In this document: positions 3,101 through 29,737 of the stretch, in pieces | Numbering within the stretch: the first letter of the stretch is position 1 | How the letters are laid out: each line of letters starts with the position of its first letter | Origin: an uncultured bacterium | Lineage (GTDB): Bacteria; Bacillota; Clostridia; Oscillospirales; Oscillospiraceae | DNA: 45,691 nucleotides | Reading direction: 5' to 3' | Assembly (NCBI GenBank): GCA_947176765.1 | Contig: CAMWRX010000015.1 | Coordinates: forward strand, 1 to 45,691 | Notes under the pieces: model-generated | Told to the model about the DNA's origin: nothing | What the model saw: the letters and a program-made list of their open reading frames with translations, nothing else | Databases searched by the model: none | Translations under genes and position numbers: made by a program

Positions 3101-3413
3101 GTTCCGCTTCCTGCCGGTCAGCTCGGGCCGGGGGGGCGGCGACTACCTGGTCACCCCCGAACAGATGGAGCTGCTGGACGGATATATCACGGACGCTTTG
3201 AAGCGCGCCGCCGGGGAGCTGGCGGCGGGCAACATCGACGCCGACCCCTACTGGCGGGGCGCCGACAAGAACCCCTGCCGCTGGTGCGACTACCGGGCCG
3301 CCTGCCACTTCGAGGAGGGCTGCGGAGACGCCAAGCGCTACCGGCGCGGCGTCAAGGCGGCGGAATTCTGGAACTGGCTGGCCCGAAAGGAGGAGGACGG
3401 ACATGGCAATTGA
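114..3413 (+). CDS. addB: AddB, ATP-dependent helicase/nuclease subunit B
   Basis: This is the second subunit of the AddAB helicase-nuclease, which resects double-strand breaks and loads RecA, the Firmicute counterpart of RecBCD. The 1099-residue length fits the family. The C-terminal RecB-type nuclease shows the VVDYKTGKK motif with D899 and K901. Four cysteines fit the Fe-S staple of AddB: C743 in a YNSC context, then C1055, C1058 and C1064 in a CxxCx5C pattern. The N-terminus (residues 1-20) has lost the usual GxxGxGK[ST] Walker A: it reads YARAGQDIRG where other AddB proteins have a P-loop. The start is supported by AAAGGAG eight bases upstream of the ATG. The stop overlaps the addA start by 11 bp, so the pair is translationally coupled. 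Positions 1-113 hold only a leader, with a weak candidate promoter near 25-54. Confidence 0.93.
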   Translation: MLNLLYARAGQDIRGELLERMGQSPARRRLLIVPEQYSHESERAMCAVLQGRASMECEVLSFTRLAGRLTDAAGGGAAPMLDAGGRMLLMYAALRKVSDALTTYRAPSRKPAFLTGLLATVDECRSYRVEPEALIAAGEELGGRQGDKLRDLGLIYAAYQTMEQAGAADPRSRLDRLAQQLQDTRWGAGMAFYVYGFTDFTPQEEQVLSALMSQGELTVAFVCDTEDDPSGIFQPALRAARRLSREAHDNGVLFLEETLDRPLPRHPSLAFLEQNLFGPVPETPWRGECTVTRIAAATPRQEAEWCAAEILRLLREEGYRCRDIAVCARKLDGYGELIESTFARYGVPVFLSAMEDVLEKPVLALVTSALAAAAEDYPYEELFRYLKTGLTGITDEERDLLENYALTWDLKGSAWTRKKPWDMHPEGYGREFTDADTAFVAWLDELRRKVIAPLETLRKGRDKTGKGRALALYQLLDDIDLPTRLGQRADSLEQRGDRSTAAQYRQLWDILVGGLEQCALLLGDTELELEEFSRLFSLVLSQYDVGAIPVSLDAVTVGDAPRMAHKEVKALFLLGADSNSIPDCAPSPGLFSDQDRDVLAAMEVELAPRQEDKLRREMTIAYETCARPPERLYVSYAAGSGDNQKTPCFLWERLAALFPHGPVADGSDPLARLSAPDAALELAGHDPNLADALRRVPGLAPRVERIQGATQWRRGRLSRLAVDELFGPVVPMSATRLDLYNSCHFSHFLRFGLDAKPRQKAAFRPSDYGTFVHAVLEDTLRAAKNAGIPLDNADEVRRLSQEAADRYEGEVLTGLDGETARFRYLFERMKQAALDVAQSVCAELSVSDFIPAAFELGFGRGKELPPVEVEQGVRLRLSGFVDRVDEWLHDGKRYLRVVDYKTGKKSFDFADVEDGRGLQMLLYLFALSREGERALGPGEIVPAGVLYVPARTPLVDGERGMSDEDIQRARDGLLRRQGLVLDDPAVLSAMEHANRAFRFLPVSSGRGGGDYLVTPEQMELLDGYITDALKRAAGELAAGNIDADPYWRGADKNPCRWCDYRAACHFEEGCGDAKRYRRGVKAAEFWNWLARKEEDGHGN

Positions 3414-6400
3414 ACTGACAAAACAGCAGCTTGCCGCGGTGGAAAACCGGGGCGGGAACTTGCTGGTGTCCGCCGCCGCCGGGTCGGGCAAGACGAGGGT
3501 GCTGGTGGAGCGGCTGATGGGCTATGTGGAACAAGGGGAGGACATCGACCGCTTTCTGGTCATCACCTTCACCAACGCCGCCGCCGCCGAGCTGCGCGAC
3601 CGCATCGCCGCCGCCATCCACGCGGCCCTGGCCCAAAGGCCGGGGAACAGGCACCTGCGGCGCAACGCCACCTTAGTATATAAGGCCCCCATCTGCACCA
3701 TCGACGCGTTCTGCCTGGACCTCCTGCGCCAGTGGGGGCACTTGGCGGATTTAGACCCCGACTTCCGCCTGTGCGACGAGGCGGAAGGGGACGAGCTGCG
3801 CCGCCGCGCCCTGGAAGAAGTGCTGGAAGCCCGGTACGCCAGCATCGCCGACGACGCCCCCTTCGCCGCCCTGGTGGACGCCCTGGCCGGGGAACGGGAC
3901 GACCAGACCCTGGAGGACGTGGTGCTGTACGTCCACCAGCAGGTGCAGGCCCAAGCTGATCCGGTGGGCTGGCTCAGGTCGCGCCAGCGGGACTTCGTAT
4001 TCCCGGAGGGCGCAGGCCCGGAGGACACCCCCTGGGGACGCGCCCTGTTGGCCGACGGCTGGGAGCTGGCGGACTACTGGCTGGGGGCGCTGAAAAACCT
4101 GCGGGACGAGATCTACTTTGACGAGCTGCTGACCAAAAACTACGCCCCCACCCTGGGGGAGACCATCGACGCGCTGGAGCGGCTGCGCTCCGCCCTGGGC
4201 CGGGGCTGGGACGAGGCGGCGGCGTGCTTCCCCATCCCCTTCCCCCGTCCGGGAGCCAAGCGGGGCGACTACGACGAGGGGCTGAAGGCCCGCATGACCG
4301 CCCAGCGGGATCAGTGCAAGGCCCAGATGAAAAAGCTGGGGGAGCGGTTCGACGTGACGGGGGCGCAGGCGGTAGACGATCTGCGGGCGGTGGGCCCCGC
4401 CATGGCGGCCCTTCTGGACGTGACAGCCCAGTTCGACGGGGCCTTTGCCAAGCTGAAGCAGCGCCGCCATTTCATCGACTTTGCCGACGGGGAGCATCTG
4501 GCGGTGCGGCTGCTGACAAACCCGGACGGCTCGCCCACCGATTTAGCCCAAGACGTGGGCAAACAGTTCCGGGAGATCATGGTGGACGAGTACCAGGACA
4601 CCAACGCCGTGCAAAACGCCATTTTCAGGGTGCTGTCTCAGGGGGACAACCTGTTCATGGTGGGGGACGTGAAGCAGTCCATCTACCGCTTCCGGCTGGC
4701 GGAGCCGGGTATCTTCCTGGACAAATATGAGCATTTCCCCCCGGCGGAGGGGGCCACCCCCGGCCAGGGGCGGAAAATCCTGCTGTCGGACAACTTCCGC
4801 TCCCGGCCCGAGGTGCTGGACGGGGTCAACTTCATTTTCCGCAACGTCATGACCCGGGCCGCCGGGGAGCTGGACTACACCGAGGCCGAGGCCCTGCGCC
4901 CCGGCCGGACAGATTTCACCCCGGATGAGCGGTACCGGGTGGAGCTGAACTGCGTGGATCTGTCCACCCTCGCCGACAGCGGCGACGAGGAGAAAACGGA
5001 TAAGGATTTGGTCGCCGCCCGGGCCGCCGCAAAGCGCGTCCGGGAGCTGCTGGACAGCGGGGCAGTCGGAGACTGCCGGGACAGTCGTTCGCCGGACGGC
5101 CAAGGGCCGTCGGACCAGTCGTCCTCCCGCAGGGAGGATGACGGTCCCTGGCGAATGACGTCCCTCATCGGGGAGCGCCCCGTGCGGGCGGAGGACATCG
5201 TCATCCTTCTGCGCTCACCGAACCCGGTGCTGCGGTATTACGCCGCCGCCCTGGACGAGCTTTCCATCCCCTGGAGCGCCGACGGAGGCCAGGAGTTCTT
5301 CGGCACAACGGAAATCTCCGTGGTCATCGCGCTGCTCCAGGTGCTGGACAACCCCCGGCAGGACGTGGCATTGCTGGCGGCCCTGCGCTCCCCCCTGTTT
5401 GACTTCACCCCCGACCGGCTGGCCCGCCTCCGGGCGGGGAGCGGCGGCACGGTGTACGACTGTCTGACCGCCGGCGCGGCCAGAGGGGAGGAGGACTGTT
5501 TGTCCTTCCTGGCCCTGCTGGGTGAGCTGCGGGAGCTGGCGGCGGAGGAGGGCAGCCACCGGCTGCTGTGGTACATCTATGGCAAATTGGACGCGCCCGC
5601 CGTGTTTGCCGCCATGCCGGACGGACAGCGGCGGCGGGCAAACCTGATGGCCCTGTACGACGAGGCCGTCCGCTTCGAGAGCGGCGGGCACCGGGGGCTG
5701 ATGGCCTTTTTGCTCCACCTCAGCCGGATGGCGGACAACGGCGTAGCCGTCCCCGTGCCGGGGAGCGAAACGGGGGGCGTGCGCATCCTATCCATCCACA
5801 AATCCAAGGGGCTGGAGTTCCCGGTGGTGCTGGTGTGCGGCCTGGACCGGAAATTCAATGAGACGGACGCCAAGGCCACCATTCTCTTTCACCCTGACCT
5901 GGGCCTGGGTCCCAAGCGCACTGACCGGGCCCGGGGCCTGCGGTACACCACCATCGCCCGGGACGCGGTGGCCCTGCGGCTGCGGCGGCAGCTCCGGGCG
6001 GAGGAGATGCGGCTTTTGTACGTGGCCATGACCCGGGCAGAGCATAAGCTGATTTTATTCTCCGCCGTCAACGGCCTGGGCGGCCAGCTCTCCGCCCTGG
6101 CGGGCCAGGCCCAGTGCCCCCCGCCCCCCCGGCAGATGGCGTCGGCCCGATCCATGTCGGACTGGGTGCTCACCCCCGTGCTGTGCCGGCGGGACAGTGC
6201 CCCCCTCTGGGAGTCGCTGGACGTTCCCCGGCCTCCATTCCCGGCGGACGAGGGCTGTCGCTGGGACATCCGAATGCTGTCCGGGGCGGACTACGAACAT
6301 CCCCAGGGCCTGGGCGGCGGGGCAGCGCAGACCGAGGCCGGCACGCAGCCCCTTGACGGCCTAGCGGAGCGGCTGAGCTGGCGCTACCCCCACCAAAACT

Positions 6401-7059
6401 GCGCCGCCATTCCCTCCAAGCTCACCGCAACCCAGCTCAAGGGGAGGGAGAAGGACGCGGAGGCGGCGGAGGATGCGGTGGAGCTGCGTCCCGCCGCTCC
6501 ACAGACCACGCTACGCCGCCCGGTGTTCGAGGGGCAGCGGCCCCTCACCCCCGCCCAGCGGGGCACCGCCCTGCACATGGTGATGCAGTACCTAAATTAT
6601 GACCGCACAAGCAGCTTCGAGGAGATCGCGGACGAGGTCGCCCGCCTTGTGTCGGGCCAGTACATCACCCCCCAGCAGGGGGAGGCGGTGAACCCGGCGG
6701 ACATCCTGTCCTTCTTCCAGTCCGGGCTGGGCCAGCGCCTGCGCAAGTCCCAGCGTGTGGAGCGGGAATTCAAGTTCTCCCTGCTGGCCCCGGCGGCGGA
6801 CTACTACGAGGAGGCCGAACCGGGGGAAGAGGTACTCCTCCAAGGCGTGGTGGACTGCTGGTTCGCGGAGGCGGACGGCACCGTCACCGTGGTGGACTTC
6901 AAGACCGACCGGGTCACCGAACACACGGTCATAGCCCGCGCAGAGGACTACCGCCCCCAGCTGGATGCCTACACCCGTGCCCTGTCCCAGGCGGCGGGCG
7001 TGACGGTGGGCCGCCGGTGCCTGTGGTTCTTCAGCGTGGGCCACGCGGTGGAGCTGTAA
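3403..7059 (+). CDS. addA: AddA, ATP-dependent helicase/nuclease subunit A
   Basis: This is the UvrD-family motor and second nuclease of AddAB. Visible motifs are Walker A AAAGSGKT (about residues 24-31), Walker B with VDEYQDT (D395, E396), helicase motif VI with YVAMTRAEHK (about 873-882), and a C-terminal RecB nuclease motif VVDFKTDR with D1165 and K1167. The 1218 residues match the family. The gene starts inside the end of addB (ATGGCAATTGA overlap), and an AAGGAGG sits just upstream within addB. Residues about 553-588 are an odd hydrophilic Ser/Asp/Arg-rich stretch between RELLDSG and the conserved RPVRAEDIVILLRS block. It is encoded by a palindromic repeat (5061-5165) that looks inserted in frame. 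The reading frame stays open, so the protein is probably functional. Confidence 0.95.
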   Translation: MAIELTKQQLAAVENRGGNLLVSAAAGSGKTRVLVERLMGYVEQGEDIDRFLVITFTNAAAAELRDRIAAAIHAALAQRPGNRHLRRNATLVYKAPICTIDAFCLDLLRQWGHLADLDPDFRLCDEAEGDELRRRALEEVLEARYASIADDAPFAALVDALAGERDDQTLEDVVLYVHQQVQAQADPVGWLRSRQRDFVFPEGAGPEDTPWGRALLADGWELADYWLGALKNLRDEIYFDELLTKNYAPTLGETIDALERLRSALGRGWDEAAACFPIPFPRPGAKRGDYDEGLKARMTAQRDQCKAQMKKLGERFDVTGAQAVDDLRAVGPAMAALLDVTAQFDGAFAKLKQRRHFIDFADGEHLAVRLLTNPDGSPTDLAQDVGKQFREIMVDEYQDTNAVQNAIFRVLSQGDNLFMVGDVKQSIYRFRLAEPGIFLDKYEHFPPAEGATPGQGRKILLSDNFRSRPEVLDGVNFIFRNVMTRAAGELDYTEAEALRPGRTDFTPDERYRVELNCVDLSTLADSGDEEKTDKDLVAARAAAKRVRELLDSGAVGDCRDSRSPDGQGPSDQSSSRREDDGPWRMTSLIGERPVRAEDIVILLRSPNPVLRYYAAALDELSIPWSADGGQEFFGTTEISVVIALLQVLDNPRQDVALLAALRSPLFDFTPDRLARLRAGSGGTVYDCLTAGAARGEEDCLSFLALLGELRELAAEEGSHRLLWYIYGKLDAPAVFAAMPDGQRRRANLMALYDEAVRFESGGHRGLMAFLLHLSRMADNGVAVPVPGSETGGVRILSIHKSKGLEFPVVLVCGLDRKFNETDAKATILFHPDLGLGPKRTDRARGLRYTTIARDAVALRLRRQLRAEEMRLLYVAMTRAEHKLILFSAVNGLGGQLSALAGQAQCPPPPRQMASARSMSDWVLTPVLCRRDSAPLWESLDVPRPPFPADEGCRWDIRMLSGADYEHPQGLGGGAAQTEAGTQPLDGLAERLSWRYPHQNCAAIPSKLTATQLKGREKDAEAAEDAVELRPAAPQTTLRRPVFEGQRPLTPAQRGTALHMVMQYLNYDRTSSFEEIADEVARLVSGQYITPQQGEAVNPADILSFFQSGLGQRLRKSQRVEREFKFSLLAPAADYYEEAEPGEEVLLQGVVDCWFAEADGTVTVVDFKTDRVTEHTVIARAEDYRPQLDAYTRALSQAAGVTVGRRCLWFFSVGHAVEL
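5061..5165 (+). repeat. In-frame palindromic element inside addA
   Basis: This 105-bp stretch folds as nested hairpins. Hairpin 1 is GGCAGTC (5061-5067) with GACTGCC (5071-5077). An outer stem pairs GGGACAGTCGTTCGCC (5078-5093) with GGCGAATGACGTCCC (5150-5164), with one bulge and one G-U pair. Inside it are GACGGCC/GGCCGTC (5095-5101 with 5105-5111) and a long arm from GGACC at 5113 to GGTCC at 5147, closed around GCA. It is related to the element in metH (29391-29444): the left 30 positions align with about five differences, and both carry ATGACGGTCCC. Its right end shares CGAATGACGTCCCT with the intergenic palindrome at 10681-10715. It is translated as an extra peptide of about 35 residues in AddA. 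Confidence 0.75.
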
Positions 7060-10038: not shown

Positions 10039-10596
10039 TCAGTCCACGTTGGGGCTGGAGCGCATCGCCAAAATGGTTTTTTCCATCAGCTCGTCCAGCT
10101 CCCAGCCCAGCATGGCCGCGCCCCGCTCGATGACCTCACGGGAGCACCCGGCGGCGAACTTCTTGTCCTTGTACTTCTTTTTCACCGACTTGACCTCCAA
10201 ATCGCTGACGCTCTTGGAGGGCCGCATGAGGGCCGCCGCGCCGATGAGGCCGGTCAGCTCGTCCACGGCGAACAGCACCTTCTCCATCTGATGCTCCGGC
10301 TGGATGTCCACCGTCAAGCCGTAGCCATGGCTGGCGGTGGCGTGGACGACGGACTCGTCGATATCCCGCTCCCGCATCAGCTCCTGGCTCTTAACGCAAT
10401 GCTGGTCGGGCCACTGCTCGAAGTCCAGGTCGTGGAGAATGCCCACCACCTCCCAGAAGTCAGCGTCCTCGCCATAGCCCAGTTCCTGGGCGAACCAGCG
10501 CAGCACGTCGCCCACGGTGCGGGCGTGTTTGCGGTGGAAGTCGCCCTCGTTGAATTCACACAAAAGCTCCCAAGCCTGTTCGGGGGTGGGGATCAT
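10039..10596 (-). CDS. HD-domain phosphohydrolase
   Basis: This is a 185-residue HD-family protein. Metal ligands are visible as an early histidine (H21 or H24), the HD pair H55-D56 in GILHDLDFE, and later histidines in VVHATASHGYG. A conserved aspartate lies in FAVDELTG. Members of this group are described only as HD-domain hydrolases, acting on nucleotides or phosphate esters; the substrate cannot be read from the sequence. AAAGGAG precedes the ATG. It is the first gene of a two-gene operon with trmO. Confidence 0.85.
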   Translation of the reverse strand: MIPTPEQAWELLCEFNEGDFHRKHARTVGDVLRWFAQELGYGEDADFWEVVGILHDLDFEQWPDQHCVKSQELMRERDIDESVVHATASHGYGLTVDIQPEHQMEKVLFAVDELTGLIGAAALMRPSKSVSDLEVKSVKKKYKDKKFAAGCSREVIERGAAMLGWELDELMEKTILAMRSSPNVD

Positions 10597-10628
10597 GGCA
10601 AACAGCTCCTTTGTTTGTATTTGAAGGA

Positions 10629-10658
10629 ATCATATACCTCTCCTCTGCCTTTTGTCAA
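10629..10658 (-). promoter_or_regulatory. Promoter of the HD/trmO operon
   Basis: On the minus strand TTGACA (10653-10658) and TATGAT (10629-10634) are separated by 18 bases, about 35 bp upstream of the HD gene start. Confidence 0.75.
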
Positions 10659-10680
10659 TCCCTCAGGCGGCCGTTTGCCT

Positions 10681-10715
10681 GGGACGTCATTCGTCCGCAG
10701 GACGAATGACGTCCC
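10681..10715. repeat. Perfect palindrome between divergent promoters
   Basis: GGGACGTCATTCGTCC (10681-10696) is followed by GCA and its exact reverse complement (10700-10715), giving a 16-bp stem with a 3-nt loop. The right arm shares CGAATGACGTCCCT with the end of the palindromic element in addA. There is no U-run, so it is not a normal terminator. It lies between the HD-operon promoter and the cysteine desulfurase promoter. Confidence 0.8.
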
Positions 10716-10729
10716 TAACGCCTCCCCCA

Positions 10730-10758
10730 TTGACTTTCCCGGTGGAACACAGTACAAT
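10730..10758 (+). promoter_or_regulatory. Promoter of the cysteine desulfurase gene
   Basis: TTGACT and TACAAT are spaced by 17 bases, 35 bp upstream of the ATG, a near-consensus sigma-A promoter. Confidence 0.82.
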
Positions 10759-10793
10759 ACAAGGACTGCCACGCCAACAGGAGGAGAACCGCC

Positions 10794-11933
10794 ATGGATC
10801 AGCTCATCTATTTCGACTACGCCGCCACCACCCCCGTGAAACACGAGGCCGTGGACGCCATGGTGGACGCCCTCCGGCAGTTCGGCAACCCCTCCTCCCG
10901 CTACGAGTACGCCCGTCAGGCCGCTTGCCGGGTAAAGGAGGATCGGGTGACGATTGCCCGGGCCTTCGGCTGCTCCCCCGCCGAATTGTACTTCACCTCC
11001 TGCGGCACCGAGAGCGATAACTGGGCCATCCGCCGGGGGGTGGAGCTGGGCCGCCGCCGGGGGCGGCACATCGTCACCACCGCCATCGAACACGCCGCCG
11101 TGCTGGAGACCTGCAAGGATCTGGAGCGGCAGGGGTGCGAGGTCACGTACTTGAAACCCGACAAGGCGGGCCGTATCACCGTGGAGCAGCTCACCGCCGC
11201 CCTGCGGCCCGACACCGTTCTGGTGTCCATGATGCTGGTGAACAACGAGACAGGCGTTATCCTGCCCGTGGCGGACTGCGTAAAGGCCGTCAAAGCCTTT
11301 GATCCCGCCATCCTGTTCCACTGCGACGCCGTGCAGGGCTTTTTGAAAACGCCAGATCCCCTGGCCCGCTTGGGGGCGGATCTGGTGGCTGTCAGCGGTC
11401 ATAAGGTGGGGGCGCCCAAGGGCGTCGGAGCGCTGTACATCAAAAAGGGCGTGCGCCTGCGCCCCCTGCTCACTGGGGGCGGCCAGGAGGACGGCCTGCG
11501 CTCCGGCACCGAGGCCACGGCCCAGATCGCCGGCTTCGCCGCCGCCGTCCGGGCCAACGCGGCAGACCCGGGCCGTCTGGAACGGGCCGCCGCCATCAAG
11601 GAATACACGCTGGCAAAGCTGAAGGAGACCCTGCCAAAATTAGAGGTCATCTCCGCCGGGGACGCTCCCCACATCTGCGCCGTCACCCTCCCCGGCTACA
11701 AGAGCGAGGTGGTCGTCCGGGTGCTGGGGGATCAGGGCGTGTGCGTCTCCTCCGGCTCCGCCTGCCACAAGGGCAAGCCCAGCCATGTGTTCGCCGCCAT
11801 GAACCTGCCCAAGCCCTGGCTGGACGGGGCGCTGCGGCTGTCCTTCTCCCCCGACTCCACAAAAGAGGAGGCGGACGCGCTGGTGTCCGCCCTCACGGAC
11901 GCGGCGGGCCGCCTGTTCACCACCTTATCCTGA
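10794..11933 (+). CDS. Cysteine desulfurase (NifS/IscS family)
   Basis: This PLP enzyme releases sulfur from cysteine for Fe-S clusters or thio-modification. The 379 residues show the N-terminal YFDYAATTPV, the SGHK motif with PLP lysine K204, and the active-site loop SSGSACHKG with catalytic C324, a compact loop of the NifS/SufS-like desulfurases. AGGAGGAG precedes the ATG and a strong promoter lies upstream. No scaffold protein (IscU/NifU) or tRNA thiouridylase is next to it, so the sulfur acceptor is not indicated. The MATE gene starts 59 bp downstream. Confidence 0.94.
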   Translation: MDQLIYFDYAATTPVKHEAVDAMVDALRQFGNPSSRYEYARQAACRVKEDRVTIARAFGCSPAELYFTSCGTESDNWAIRRGVELGRRRGRHIVTTAIEHAAVLETCKDLERQGCEVTYLKPDKAGRITVEQLTAALRPDTVLVSMMLVNNETGVILPVADCVKAVKAFDPAILFHCDAVQGFLKTPDPLARLGADLVAVSGHKVGAPKGVGALYIKKGVRLRPLLTGGGQEDGLRSGTEATAQIAGFAAAVRANAADPGRLERAAAIKEYTLAKLKETLPKLEVISAGDAPHICAVTLPGYKSEVVVRVLGDQGVCVSSGSACHKGKPSHVFAAMNLPKPWLDGALRLSFSPDSTKEEADALVSALTDAAGRLFTTLS

Positions 11934-25561: not shown

Positions 25562-27317
25562 ACCGCAATTCTTTCATGATCCGCGCAATCAGTTCCACCC
25601 GTCGGAAGGGGGTCATGAGATACCACCCGTCGGTATAGGACTCCATGTCCCGGGCGGTTTTCACCGACAGTTCCACCGCCAGCTCCTCCGCCGCCTCCCG
25701 GCCCAGGCCCTCGTATCGCCTCACAATCTCCTCCGGCACGGATACCCCCGCCACCTCGTTGTTGAGGAACAGGGCGTTGCGGTGGCTGACAATGGGGAAC
25801 ACACCGCCCAGAATTTTCCCCTTCAGCGTCTGACGGGCCAGCGCCAGGTTTTCCAGCGCCCGGGGGGAGTGGACGGGCTGGGTGAGGAACCCCGCCGCCC
25901 CGGCCTCTTCTTTTTCCAGCGCCAGCTCCAGCTGCTTCTGAAAATTGACGGCGTTCACGTTCAGCGCCCCAAAAATCTGGAAGGGGACGGACAGACCGTG
26001 GTCGGTGAGCCCGCTGACATAGCGGATCAGCTTCCGGGAGTTGAAGTTGAACACGCTCTTCACCTCGTCCCGATCCTCGGTGGGGACGGGGTCGCCGGTG
26101 ACCAGCAGCACGTTGCGCACGCCCTCCATGCTCAGCCCCAGCAGCAGCGCCTTGGTGGCATTCAGGTTGCGGTCCCGGCAGGTCATGTGGGGCAGGGGCT
26201 CCATCCCCGTCTCCCGGCGGATCTTGCAGGCCAGCAGGGAGCTGTCCGCGCGGGGCCGGCCCACCGGGCAGTCGGACACGGTGATGGCGTCCGCCCCCGC
26301 GTCCCGCAGGGCCCGCACCCCCTCCATAAACCCGTCCACCTGGTCGTCCGCGGGCGGGTCCAGCTCCACGGCGATGACCCGCTTCCCCGCCTCCAGCTTG
26401 TCCCGCAGGCGGTTGCGCCCAGGTTGTTTCTCCATCCTGACCCTGGGCTGGGCCGGGAGGACAGCGGGCGCTATGGATAATCCCTCCAGCGCCCCGGCGG
26501 TGGCGGCGATGTGCCGGGGCGTGGTGCCGCAGCAGCCGCCCACAATGGCCGCCCCCGTCCGGACGATGTCCGCCATCTGGGCGGCAAAGTAGTCCGCTTG
26601 GCCCTGGTATACCACCCGCCGGCCCAGCACCGTGGGATAGCCCGCGTTGGGCATCACAGAGAGGAATTTGCCGTTCAAAACACTCAAATCCAGCCCCCGG
26701 ACAAATTCCAGCAGGTGATGGGGGCCCGACACGCAGTTGAAGCCCACCGCGTCCACCCCATCCAGGGCGGCGGCGCGCTCAAAGAGAGCGCGCCCTGGCA
26801 GGCCCTCCCGGGTCATTCCGTCCGCCCCCACAGCAAAGGATACCAGCAGAAACGCCTCGGGACAGCGCTCCTTGATGTACCGGGCCAGCTCGGGGATACC
26901 CTCGTCGGAGGACAGGGTCTCCACTACGAAATGGGTCAGCCCCTGATCCAAAAACACCTCCGCCTGTTGGCGGTAGCACTCCCCAGGGGACTGCGCCCCC
27001 TCCTGGGGCGCGGGGCCCAGGTCGGCGAACACGTAAGCGCCGAAGGGCCGGGCCGCCGCCAGGGCAAGGCGGCATCCCGCCCGGATAATGCGTCCGGCGG
27101 CCTCCCCGTCCGTCCCCACGTCGAAGGTGTTGGTGCGGATGGCCCGGCACCCCGCCTCCAGATAGGCCCGGTGGATGGCAGCGATCTCCTCTGGGTGGTT
27201 CACGTTTTCCGGCTCACACCGGGCCTCGATCCGGCCGGGGCGGGAGGCAAAGTACGTCCCCATGGCCCCGTCGAACAAAAGGGGCCGGTCTTGCGCCAAA
27301 TACTCTCGAATGTTCAT
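25560..27317 (-). CDS. Bifunctional homocysteine S-methyltransferase / methylenetetrahydrofolate reductase
   Basis: The 585 residues hold an N-terminal homocysteine methyltransferase domain (about 1-285) and a C-terminal MTHF reductase domain (about 300-585), like Bacillus YitJ. The zinc site is visible as GFNCVSGP and GGCCGTTP. The reductase part shows VIAVELDPP, the folate/FAD barrel motif LVTGDPVPT and AAGFLTQPV. It produces 5-methyl-THF for MetH and can itself methylate homocysteine. Its ATG overlaps the metH stop by 4 bp (ATGA), so it is translationally coupled and the last gene of the methionine operon. Confidence 0.93.
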   Translation of the reverse strand: MNIREYLAQDRPLLFDGAMGTYFASRPGRIEARCEPENVNHPEEIAAIHRAYLEAGCRAIRTNTFDVGTDGEAAGRIIRAGCRLALAAARPFGAYVFADLGPAPQEGAQSPGECYRQQAEVFLDQGLTHFVVETLSSDEGIPELARYIKERCPEAFLLVSFAVGADGMTREGLPGRALFERAAALDGVDAVGFNCVSGPHHLLEFVRGLDLSVLNGKFLSVMPNAGYPTVLGRRVVYQGQADYFAAQMADIVRTGAAIVGGCCGTTPRHIAATAGALEGLSIAPAVLPAQPRVRMEKQPGRNRLRDKLEAGKRVIAVELDPPADDQVDGFMEGVRALRDAGADAITVSDCPVGRPRADSSLLACKIRRETGMEPLPHMTCRDRNLNATKALLLGLSMEGVRNVLLVTGDPVPTEDRDEVKSVFNFNSRKLIRYVSGLTDHGLSVPFQIFGALNVNAVNFQKQLELALEKEEAGAAGFLTQPVHSPRALENLALARQTLKGKILGGVFPIVSHRNALFLNNEVAGVSVPEEIVRRYEGLGREAAEELAVELSVKTARDMESYTDGWYLMTPFRRVELIARIMKELR

Positions 27318-29737
27318 GCTCCAAACACCTTCCGGGCGATCTCCACCGACTGGCGGGCGTCCTTCGCGTAGTAGTCCGCCCCCATCTCCTTGGCGTACTC
27401 GGGGGTGACCACCGCGCCGCCCACCCAGACCGCCGGGGGATCGGGCAGGGCCTTGAGCTGCTTGATGGTCTCCTCCATGGCGGGCAGGGTGGTGGTCATC
27501 AGGGCGGACAGCCCCACCAGCCCGATATTCTGCTCCTTCACCGTGCCCACAATGACCTCTGGCGGCACATCCCGGCCTAAATCTACGGCCTCATAGCCGT
27601 AGTTCTCCATCACCGTGCGCACGATGTTTTTACCGATGTCGTGGATGTCCCCCTTGACGGTGGCGATGGCAAACTTGCCTTTCTTCACCGGGGCGCCGCC
27701 CTTTTCCGCAATGGAGGCTTTGATCACGTCGAATACCGCCTGGGCGGCCTGGGCGGCGCTCAAAAGCTGGGGCAGGAAGGCCCGCCCCGCCTCGTAGTCC
27801 TCGCCCACCTTGTCCAGGGCGGGGATGAGCCGCCCCTCCACCAGGGACAGCTCGTCCTGGCTTTGCAGCGCCTCTTTCGCCAGCCGTCCGGCGTCCCCTT
27901 CCAGTCCCCGGATAATGGCGTCCTCCAGGGTGAGACCCTTCCCCGGCGCGGCGGGGGCGGTTTTCGCCGCCGGGGCAGCGTCGGCAAACCGGGCGATGTA
28001 GTCCCGGCTGCCCGCGTCCTCGCCGGACAGCACCTTGAACGCCGCCACCGCGTCCATCATATCCCGCTGGTTCGGGTTGATGATGGGCAGGGTGAGCCCC
28101 GCCGCCATGGCCTGGATGAGGAAATTCTGGGTGACCAGGGGCCGGTTTGGCAGGCCGAAGGAGATGTTGGACACCCCCAGCACCACCTGGAGGCCCAGCT
28201 CCTCCCGCACCATGCGCACAGCCTTGAGGGTCTCTTGTGCTTGCTCCTGTTGGGCAGACACGGTGAGGGTCAGGCAGTCGATCCACACGTCCTCCGCCGG
28301 GATGCCATAGCTGAGGGCCGCGTCCAGAATGCGCCGGGCAATGGCCACCCGGCCCTCGGCGGTCTGGGGGATGCCGCGCTCATCCAAGCACAGGCCCACC
28401 ACGCTGGCCCCGTACTTTTTCACGATGGGCAGAATGCGGTCCAGCACCGCCCGCTCGCCGTTCACCGAGTTCACCGCCGCCTTGCCGTTGTACACCCGCA
28501 GGCCCGCCTCCAGAGCGTCAGGGTTGGAGGAGTCCAGTTGCAGGGGCAGGGAGACGGCGCTCTGGATCTTCTTCACCACACGGGGGAGCATGGCCACCTC
28601 GTCCACTCCGGGGAAACCTACATTCACGTCCAGGATGTCCGCCCCGGCGTCCTCCTGCTGGACGGCCACGTCCAGGATGTAATCCAGGTCGTTTTCCAAA
28701 AGGGCCTGCTGGAAGCGTTTCTTGCCCGTGGGGTTGACCCGCTCGCCGATGACCCGCACCCCGTCCAGGGCGCAGGGGGTCATGGCGGAGCACACAAAGC
28801 CCGTAGACCAGTACGTCCTGGGGGCGGGCATTTTGTCCTCCAGCGCCTTCGACAGCGCCCGGATATACTCCGGCGAGGTGCCGCAGCAGCCGCCAAAGAT
28901 GGTGACGCCCACGTCCAGGCAAGGGGCCAGCGCCTGGACAAAGTCCTCCGGGTTCATGTCGTAGGCCCCGGTGGCCGGGTCAGGCAGGCCCGCGTTGGGC
29001 TTGGCAATGACGGGCAGGCGGGTGTTCTCGCACAGCTCCTTGAGCAGCGGAGCCAGCAGGTCGGGGCCAAGGGAGCAGTTCAGCCCGATGGCGTCCGCCC
29101 CCAGACCCTCCAGCGTCCGGGCCATGGAGGCGATGGTACAGCCGGTGAAGGTGCGGCCATTTTGCTCAAAAGACATGGTGACGAACACCGGCAGATTTGT
29201 GTTCTCCTTCACCGCCAGCAGCGCGGCTTTGGCCTCGTAGAGGTCGGTCATAGTCTCGATGACCGCCAGGTCGGCCCCCGCCTTCTCCCCGGCAACGGCC
29301 ACCTCTTTGAACCACTCATAGGCCCGCTCAAAGGGCAGGGTGCCCAGCGGCTCCAGCAGCTCCCCCAGGGGGCCCATGTCCAGGGCTACGGCAGTCGGCA
29401 GACTGTCGGACCGGTCGTTGGGGCGAAGCCCCAATGACGGTCCCCCGGCATCGGTCCCAGCGGCGGCCTCTTTCGCGATGGCGATGGCGGCGGACACCAC
29501 CTCGTCCACGCTGTGCCCGGTGGAGGCCAGCTTGGGGGCGCTGGCCCCGAAGGTGTTGGCGTAGATGATATTGCTCCCGGCGTCGATGTACTCCCGGTAA
29601 ACACTTCTCAGCAGGTCGGGCTGAGTGAAGTTCAACAGCTCCGGCTTGCCCCCAGGGGGCAGGCCCTTCTGCTGCAATACGGTGCCCATAGCGCCGTCCA
29701 GAATGACGATCCCATCATATAAAAAATCAAGCTCCAC
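27314..29737 (-). CDS. metH: MetH, cobalamin-dependent methionine synthase (without activation domain)
   Basis: This 807-residue protein transfers a methyl group from 5-methyl-THF to homocysteine via cobalamin. Domains in order are homocysteine-binding (about 1-310; zinc cysteines in GLNCSLGP and GGCCGTSPE), pterin-binding (about 325-590; NPTGKKRFQQAL, DVNVGFPG) and the cap plus B12-binding module (about 610-807) with D697-x-H699-x-x-G702, where H699 is the lower axial ligand. The SAM-dependent activation domain is missing and encoded by the upstream gene. The start is GTG, with AAGGAGG seven bases before it inside the upstream gene (11-bp overlap). Residues about 96-115 are an in-frame insertion encoded by a palindromic element. 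Confidence 0.95.
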   Translation of the reverse strand: MELDFLYDGIVILDGAMGTVLQQKGLPPGGKPELLNFTQPDLLRSVYREYIDAGSNIIYANTFGASAPKLASTGHSVDEVVSAAIAIAKEAAAGTDAGGPSLGLRPNDRSDSLPTAVALDMGPLGELLEPLGTLPFERAYEWFKEVAVAGEKAGADLAVIETMTDLYEAKAALLAVKENTNLPVFVTMSFEQNGRTFTGCTIASMARTLEGLGADAIGLNCSLGPDLLAPLLKELCENTRLPVIAKPNAGLPDPATGAYDMNPEDFVQALAPCLDVGVTIFGGCCGTSPEYIRALSKALEDKMPAPRTYWSTGFVCSAMTPCALDGVRVIGERVNPTGKKRFQQALLENDLDYILDVAVQQEDAGADILDVNVGFPGVDEVAMLPRVVKKIQSAVSLPLQLDSSNPDALEAGLRVYNGKAAVNSVNGERAVLDRILPIVKKYGASVVGLCLDERGIPQTAEGRVAIARRILDAALSYGIPAEDVWIDCLTLTVSAQQEQAQETLKAVRMVREELGLQVVLGVSNISFGLPNRPLVTQNFLIQAMAAGLTLPIINPNQRDMMDAVAAFKVLSGEDAGSRDYIARFADAAPAAKTAPAAPGKGLTLEDAIIRGLEGDAGRLAKEALQSQDELSLVEGRLIPALDKVGEDYEAGRAFLPQLLSAAQAAQAVFDVIKASIAEKGGAPVKKGKFAIATVKGDIHDIGKNIVRTVMENYGYEAVDLGRDVPPEVIVGTVKEQNIGLVGLSALMTTTLPAMEETIKQLKALPDPPAVWVGGAVVTPEYAKEMGADYYAKDARQSVEIARKVFGA
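29391..29444. repeat. In-frame palindromic element inside metH
   Basis: On the plus strand GCAGTC (29391-29396) can pair with GACTGT (29401-29406). A larger arm GGACCGGTCGTTGGGGC (29408-29424) pairs with GCCCCAATGACGGTCC (29428-29443) around GAA, with one bulge and one G-U. It aligns with the addA element: GGCAGTCGG, AGACTG and GTCGTT on the left, ATGACGGTCCC on the right. Relative to the gene it lies in the opposite orientation. It encodes AGGPSLGLRPNDRSDSLPT between the conserved AIAKEAAAGT and VALDMGP blocks of MetH. Confidence 0.75.

Follow-up and report, generated by a model that had tools for sequence, protein, structure and literature searches.

On sequence comparison, the addA gene of an uncultured gut bacterium of the Oscillospiraceae carries an in-frame palindromic insertion. 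We consider it probable that this insert is one copy of the S-B unit, a mobile, REP-like element confined to its lineage, which is spread by a hairpin-recognising process acting in trans and is tolerated in frame. The window, by which we mean the whole stretch of DNA that was analysed, is 45,691 nucleotides long. Close species show the empty site, S alone, S-B and nested forms at the same codons, which makes both the polarity and the mechanism testable; the origin and growth of in-frame palindromes is the question on which these orthologue states bear.

The insert in addA and its orthologues

The host gene and the parts of the insert are as follows.

3403..7059, plus strand: addA (helicase/nuclease subunit A), 1218 aa, the insertion host; an ORF with Pfam matches to UvrD-helicase and PDDEXK_1 and a match to B. 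subtilis AddA (3u44, E 2.1e-175)
5061..5077, plus strand: small hairpin S1, GGCAGTC-gga-GACTGCC, from the RNA fold; L041 and L052 have identical letters here
5078..5093, plus strand: left arm of B1, GGGACaGTCGTTCGCC, with the conserved bulge and G.U, from the RNA fold and the family pattern
5095..5111, plus strand: small hairpin S2, nested in the B1 loop, from the RNA fold; a hairpin stands here without B2 in L041 and L052
5112..5147, plus strand: second large hairpin, B2, from the model match; absent from L041 and L052
5150..5164, plus strand: right arm of B1, GGCGAATGACGTCCC, from the RNA fold

The initial annotation had described a palindromic, in-frame stretch inside addA, and this is confirmed at 5061-5165 by the 1218-aa ORF, its Pfam domains, the match to 3u44 and the RNA fold. 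Its picture of three hairpins within one outer stem is right in the count of three, but S1 stands beside the outer stem B1 and only S2 and B2 lie within it; the size that it gave, 105 bp or about 35 residues, is close to the net gain over an empty site, 99 bp (33 codons). The RNA fold of 5051-5175 has an energy of -80.9 kcal/mol (z -7.4; none of 200 shuffles falls so low), and the three lowest energies among 237 segments of addA (105 nt, step 15) all overlap 5061-5165. By the match to 3u44 the insert falls between positions 565 and 578 of the B. subtilis protein. The family's covariance model matches S2-B2 at 5094-5148 with 66.3 bits (E 4.3e-11), S2-B2 being one of the ten sequences from which the model was built.

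An AddA match is present in 58 of 60 genomes, our own included, and also in 26 named loci; both flanks could be read at the insert codon in 56 AddA rows, among which several genomes are present twice. Alignment with the AddA of relatives had been proposed as a check, and the insert residues are indeed missing from 50 of the 56 rows, with flanks that can be aligned. The six filled rows belong to the window's own genome (G000: L010 and the window itself) and to two close species, G033 (L011 and L041) and G018 (L012 and L052). Most empty rows have an 18-nt gap here; relative to it, AddA is longer at the same codon by 66 bp in G033, 63 bp in G018 and 99 bp in the window. S1 and both arms of B1 are letter-identical in all three. 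The 33 bp by which the window exceeds G033 (L041) are B2, directly after S2, which among the compared AddA rows is found in the window's genome only. The aligned letters of the element are identical to the window's at 65/67 and 64/67 positions between species, and the flanks (300 nt) show identities of 88% upstream and 95% downstream. Presence is patchy, addA being filled in G000, G018 and G033 and empty in G005 and G027; loss or recombination must therefore also act.

A dispersed family in genes and at tRNA ends

The family unit is a double hairpin of about 55 bp: a small stem S comes first, and behind it stands a larger stem B, whose bulge and G.U pair are conserved. Searching the own genome with a B-core pattern gives 29 matches, three being longer spans that cover another match, against 0 for a reversed-pattern control. 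The covariance model R1, built from ten units, gives 36 at E<=0.1, including a few that overlap or lie in reverse. Sixty genomes were searched with R1 (our own, 36 of the same genus and 23 of other families in the order), and matches at E<=0.001 occur in seven, all of one genus: 32 in G000, 24 in G005, 13 in G016, 23 in G018, 4 in G022, 25 in G027 and 26 in G033. In an order-wide search of 295 genomes, with 19 candidates scored per genome, the own genome alone appeared among the matches listed; the six carriers already known were either outside the sample or overlooked, so that low-copy or diverged families could be missed as well.

A genome-wide search for further copies with compensatory changes had been suggested, and it found many. 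In a MAFFT alignment of 82 distinct units, chosen from 127 non-redundant ones and with the structure written from the family pattern, 97.1% of 1771 alignment cells hold standard pairs and 17 of 22 pairs have changed on both sides. Double-change cells number 198 against 45.3 in shuffles, and 0 of 500 shuffles reach any of five measures, a result that is not a probability, because the copies are related and the shuffles do not keep relatedness; slid controls are paired in 23-54% of cells. The predicted pairing is supported by these compensatory changes. The G.U pair at columns 32-51 is kept in 80 of the 82 units, and the bulge is likewise conserved. Other pairs covary, so that one strand is distinguished. 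Simple pattern rules class 10 of the 127 units as nested and 16 as tandem.

Tandem S-B arrays with a period of about 53-56 bp lie at G000:C95:7003-7221, G016:C2:3917-4083 and G022:C13:66442-66601. The window itself holds one intergenic copy.

10665..10716, plus strand: intergenic family member, palindrome GGGACGTCATTCGTCC-gca-GGACGAATGACGTCCC; R1 39.1 bits, outside the model-building set

At the loci orthologous to window positions 10560-10800 (L252/L253), G033 has a different family composite and about 0.9 kb of extra sequence.

Rfam at its gathering score reports only tRNA in the window and no known RNA family for the element, and on 5030-5200 it gives one chance-level match (E 2.2). Carriage by phage or plasmid was considered and rejected, since two strict patterns have 0 matches in viral contigs and blastn of 5040-5190 finds no match in phages or plasmids.

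Placement was scored for 144 rows, comprising 29 of the 36 own matches and 115 matches of relatives; the seven own matches left out were tandem neighbours, overlapping reverse matches and weak ones. By a codon-usage score trained on 12 window genes, the flanks are not coding in one frame in 122 rows, 14 rows are in frame on both flanks, five have coding flanks with a stop between, and three lie at contig edges. This call is imperfect. It takes in the doubtful C64:6011, one flank of which holds a stop and for which Pfam gives no match, and it fails to pick up AddB in G005 and two orthologue-confirmed MetH/MetF-like rows. A rougher ORF method puts 28 of the 144 inside ORFs, some of them at ORF ends. 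Most family copies are non-coding, and the reading of the insert as a palindromic element in frame in addA does not extend to most of its family. Among intergenic rows both neighbours point the element's way in 45 and both point the opposite way in 14, tandem copies and orthologues not being independent in these counts.

A second copy that is read in frame lies elsewhere in the window, in a methionine synthase-like gene.

27314..29737, minus strand: MetH-like corrinoid methionine synthase, 807 aa, the second host gene; Pfam S-methyl_trans, Pterin_bind, B12-binding and B12-binding_2
29389..29444, plus strand: S-B unit in the MetH gene, antisense and read in frame; found first by the pattern match, R1 75 bits, E 8.6e-13 (one of the model's ten sequences); empty and S-only orthologues exist

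When only rows with orthologue support are counted, there are seven gene sites, AddA and six others, with both filled and empty orthologues, and at these the length differences are divisible by 3 and hold no stops. Against one chosen empty orthologue for each of the six, the MetH N-terminal site is longer by 54 bp in the window and 15 in G027 (30 distinct orthologue segments read), the MetH linker by 123 in G018 and 72 in G016 (28 segments), the linker of a homocysteine methyltransferase/MTHFR protein (MetF-like) by 87 in G018 and 81 in G033 (18), the SWIM protein site by 84 in both G000 and G005 and 30 in G027 (12), and the AddB site by 57 in G005 and 9 in G033 (23). The DUF5682 site is longer by 54 bp in G000, and in G027 the element replaces adjacent residues with a net length change of zero (12); DUF5682 and AddB also vary naturally in length. 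The MetH linker and MetF-like linker sites fall between Pfam domains, and the MetH N-terminal, AddB and DUF5682 sites inside one. Fold energy per base on the gene strand overlaps between filled and empty orthologues, an empty MetF-like orthologue having -0.57 against -0.47 and -0.52 for filled ones.

The element is antisense to the gene at five of the seven sites and sense in AddA and DUF5682. Over 126 units, 336 of 378 frames are open on the reverse strand and 228 of 378 on the forward strand, with 67% in shuffled sequence; the excess of antisense copies in genes fits the reverse strand being open more often. The same element DNA, read on both strands, gives unrelated peptides. Outside the orthologue-supported set, a PAS-kinase copy in G027 looks coding by flank scoring, a TrmD-GNAT copy and one SAM-methyltransferase copy are found close to C-termini, and another is close to an N-terminus.

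ARAGORN predicts 57 tRNAs in the 119 loci that hold the rows, some of these loci overlapping. Fourteen of the 144 rows, some mutually orthologous, start 0 nt after a tRNA 3' CCA end, all 14 in the tRNA's orientation; once nested and tandem units are set aside, 22 of 127 units directly follow CCA, which makes up 2.5% of positions. A T-rich 3' edge (at least 6 T in 10 nt) is present in 10 of the 13 tRNA-end units of the non-redundant list, and by another count (at least 5 of 7) a T run is found in 0 of 26 rows called inside ORFs. Behind an orthologous-looking tRNA-Tyr, G000 has S-B and G005 and G027 have other hairpins; tRNA-Gly is followed by S-B, by nested S-B, or by a second repeated, A-rich hairpin and then GGGCACCA and S-B. 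We infer that the S-B copies at tRNA ends act as terminators. They suggest that hairpins can supply or replace terminators, which would link mobile palindromes with transcription termination.

The second repeated palindrome, approximately AAAATAAAAGGACTGCC-nnn-GGCAGTCCTTTTATTTTT, is followed by GGGYAC(C/T)A and then by an S-B-like stretch. It stands directly after tRNA 3' ends in L001, L078, L186, L187, L242 and L260 and away from tRNA in L002, and looks like a repeated terminator of its own.

Growth of the unit and how it may spread

B is present or absent beside S among orthologues at four places. At addA S2 stands alone in G018 and G033 and as S2-B2 in the window's genome only; at the MetH N-terminal site S is alone in G027 and S-B is found in the window; the SWIM gene has S alone in G027 and S-B in G000 and G005, there flanked by a direct repeat; and AddB has an S-like hairpin alone in G033 and S-B-S in G005. 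A tree of concatenated proteins, (G018,(G033,(G000,(G005,G027)))), has moderate supports of 96, 77 and 86. The trees of single genes differ from it but are weakly supported, that of AddB joining G033 and G005 at 55. Because the concatenated tree puts G018 and G033 outside G000 and its sisters G005 and G027, the S2-only state of addA would be the older one, and B2 is most simply a gain. At SWIM, B was most simply lost in G027, between direct repeats. For MetH and AddB, B may have been gained or lost, the direction not being certain.

In the mechanism that we propose, the S-B unit would spread by a process that recognises hairpins and acts in trans, and new B or S-B modules would join a hairpin that is already there, either at its 3' foot or within its loop, giving the nested and tandem forms. 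Modules would also be lost, as apparently happened once between short direct repeats. The bulge and the G.U, being strand-asymmetric, would mark the strand that is recognised or transcribed. Copies in genes would survive only if they keep the frame in a tolerant place, and would be translated as an added peptide that is probably near neutral.

A mobilising enzyme was sought in the transposase class PF01797, and none was found. Y1 transposase (PF01797) is present in one of seven carriers against four of 13 other genomes, several carriers being incomplete, and R1 finds no unit in the 3354-base locus of our own genome's Y1 copy; mobilisation of the RAYT/IS200 kind was rejected on these grounds and because the own copy seems to be without the HUH histidines. 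Comparing filled with empty gene sites by eye, we saw no clean target-site duplication of the kind expected of a MITE, and the search for a parent transposon covered PF01797.

A Y1_Tnp-like ORF of 151 aa lies at L066:1468-1923 (G000:C90). Its HUH histidines seem to be replaced, and we take it to be possibly a domesticated or dead transposase.

Other origins have to be weighed against spread by a trans-acting process. A rather unlikely one is that the unit represents a novel sort of mobile hairpin, one that joins structured RNA or DNA at its 3' foot, possibly via an RNA or single-stranded DNA intermediate and without a transposase of its own. Such a hairpin would land after tRNA CCA ends as a terminator and pile up on itself (S, S-B, S-B inside B), and the genic insertions would be a by-product giving stepwise in-frame growth of proteins.

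We judge it quite improbable that no transposition is involved, and that terminators or stem-loops were instead multiplied by replication slippage, cruciform template switching and homologous recombination between hairpins. The tandem arrays of C95, G016 C2 and G022 C13 and the arm-wise compensatory variation are compatible with template switching within palindromes, a deletion between direct repeats fits SWIM in G027, and the failure to find a mobilising enzyme points the same way. Slippage, however, leaves the dispersal to new loci unexplained. Complete S-B units are found in unrelated genes, and by eye the empty orthologues of these sites contain none, with the qualification that filled and empty orthologues cannot be told apart by fold energy alone.

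We hold it to be very improbable that the inserts are under selection as pieces of the protein, serving as functional linkers or loops, with the symmetry of the DNA a side effect. The MetH linker and MetF-like sites between Pfam domains, the position in AddA between residues 565 and 578 of the B. subtilis protein and the conservation of the addA element (65/67 and 64/67 letters against 88% upstream and 95% downstream) would suit such a role, but the unrelated peptides from the two strands, the non-coding majority of copies, the close relatives without an insert and the three sites inside a Pfam domain (MetH N-terminal, AddB and DUF5682) all speak against it. It is scarcely credible that the element is bypassed by the ribosome, as the byp elements of mitochondria are, rather than translated: the strong RNA hairpin inside an intact gene speaks for bypassing, but all seven gene sites keep the frame without stops, and bypassing would require neither.

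Relation to known palindromic elements

The S-B family has its closest counterparts among other dispersed palindromes and hairpin repeats. In-frame palindromes have been described for more than two decades and are cited from 2000 (PMC10969869, in excerpt). The initial annotation named Rickettsia as their source; they are known there but not only there, since intragenic GTAG and CGTC REPs occur in many species, with recBCD and uvr genes among the hosts (PMC3733652, in excerpt). It had also offered the insert as one without a description in this clostridial group, and we found none for Clostridia in the open-licence literature, by titles and the starts of abstracts. In-frame palindromes as such are already known; what appears to be new is the occurrence in a clostridial lineage, the nesting steps caught among orthologues and the link to tRNA ends. 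The five phyla named for CGTC repeats in the excerpted text of PMC3733652 are without Bacillota, and in-frame REP-like elements are now found in a clostridial lineage outside them.

CGTC-tagged REPs (Di Nocera 2013; PMC3733652, in excerpt) are short, dispersed palindromes, mostly intergenic and not tied to transposase genes, and include RPE-4 and RPE-6 of Rickettsia and dRS3 of Neisseria. According to the same excerpt their CGTC tag is unpaired, the stems are of 8-9 bp, the tail is mostly CCA, and head-to-head dimers dominate. The S-B unit is likewise short, dispersed and mostly intergenic, and in 106 of 127 units B carries CGTCATT on its reverse strand; unlike those REPs, it has its CGTC in a longer paired stem, is preceded by hairpin S, and nests. 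Columns 52-55, which hold the CGTC, pair with 31, 30, 29 and 27 in 79 to 82 of 82 rows, and we do not file the family as a CGTC REP because the tag is base-paired here. ATT follows CGTC in the same 106 of 127, but the stem as a whole is longer than 8-9 bp, and the conserved G.U, which reads A.C on the reverse strand, forms the first of these pairs. In 37 of 127 units CCA is found at the 3' edge, that edge belonging to the forward unit and not to the tail of the CGTC reading.

With GTAG REPs and their RAYT genes the family shares an imperfect palindrome, strand asymmetry and dispersal, but GTAG is present in only 14 of 127 units and a Y1 transposase was not found in six of seven carriers; no RAYT gene flanked by repeats was seen in these genomes, several of them incomplete.

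SPRITE of pneumococcus is dispersed and resembles a Rho-independent terminator, with an AT-rich single duplex and a T-rich tract, and is enriched near the 3' ends of coding genes (PMC3049150, in excerpt). The present family is also a dispersed terminator-like repeat; it differs in being a GC-rich double hairpin that partly abuts tRNA CCA ends and partly lies inside coding genes. Double-hairpin elements of fungal mitochondria consist of two adjacent hairpins and are thought to be mobile; by description they share the two hairpins with our family, and differ in being mitochondrial.

Cod-2 (Cozzuto 2008; PMC2267715, in excerpt) is a small structured repeat found in various coding sequences in different frames and was likened by its authors to elements of R. 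conorii; compared by description, it shares with the S-B unit a small structured repeat in coding sequences. The Rickettsia palindromic elements themselves (RPE-1 and others) are palindromes in frame in unrelated genes (PMC10969869 and PMC3733652, in excerpt), of about 150 bp (PMC10969869, in excerpt). In-frame insertion into unrelated genes, absent from orthologues, is common to both and is found here at seven gene sites; unlike those elements, again compared by description, most copies here are non-coding and some stand at tRNA ends. By analogy with these systems, the family works like known elements, as a dispersed palindrome that is tolerable in frame.
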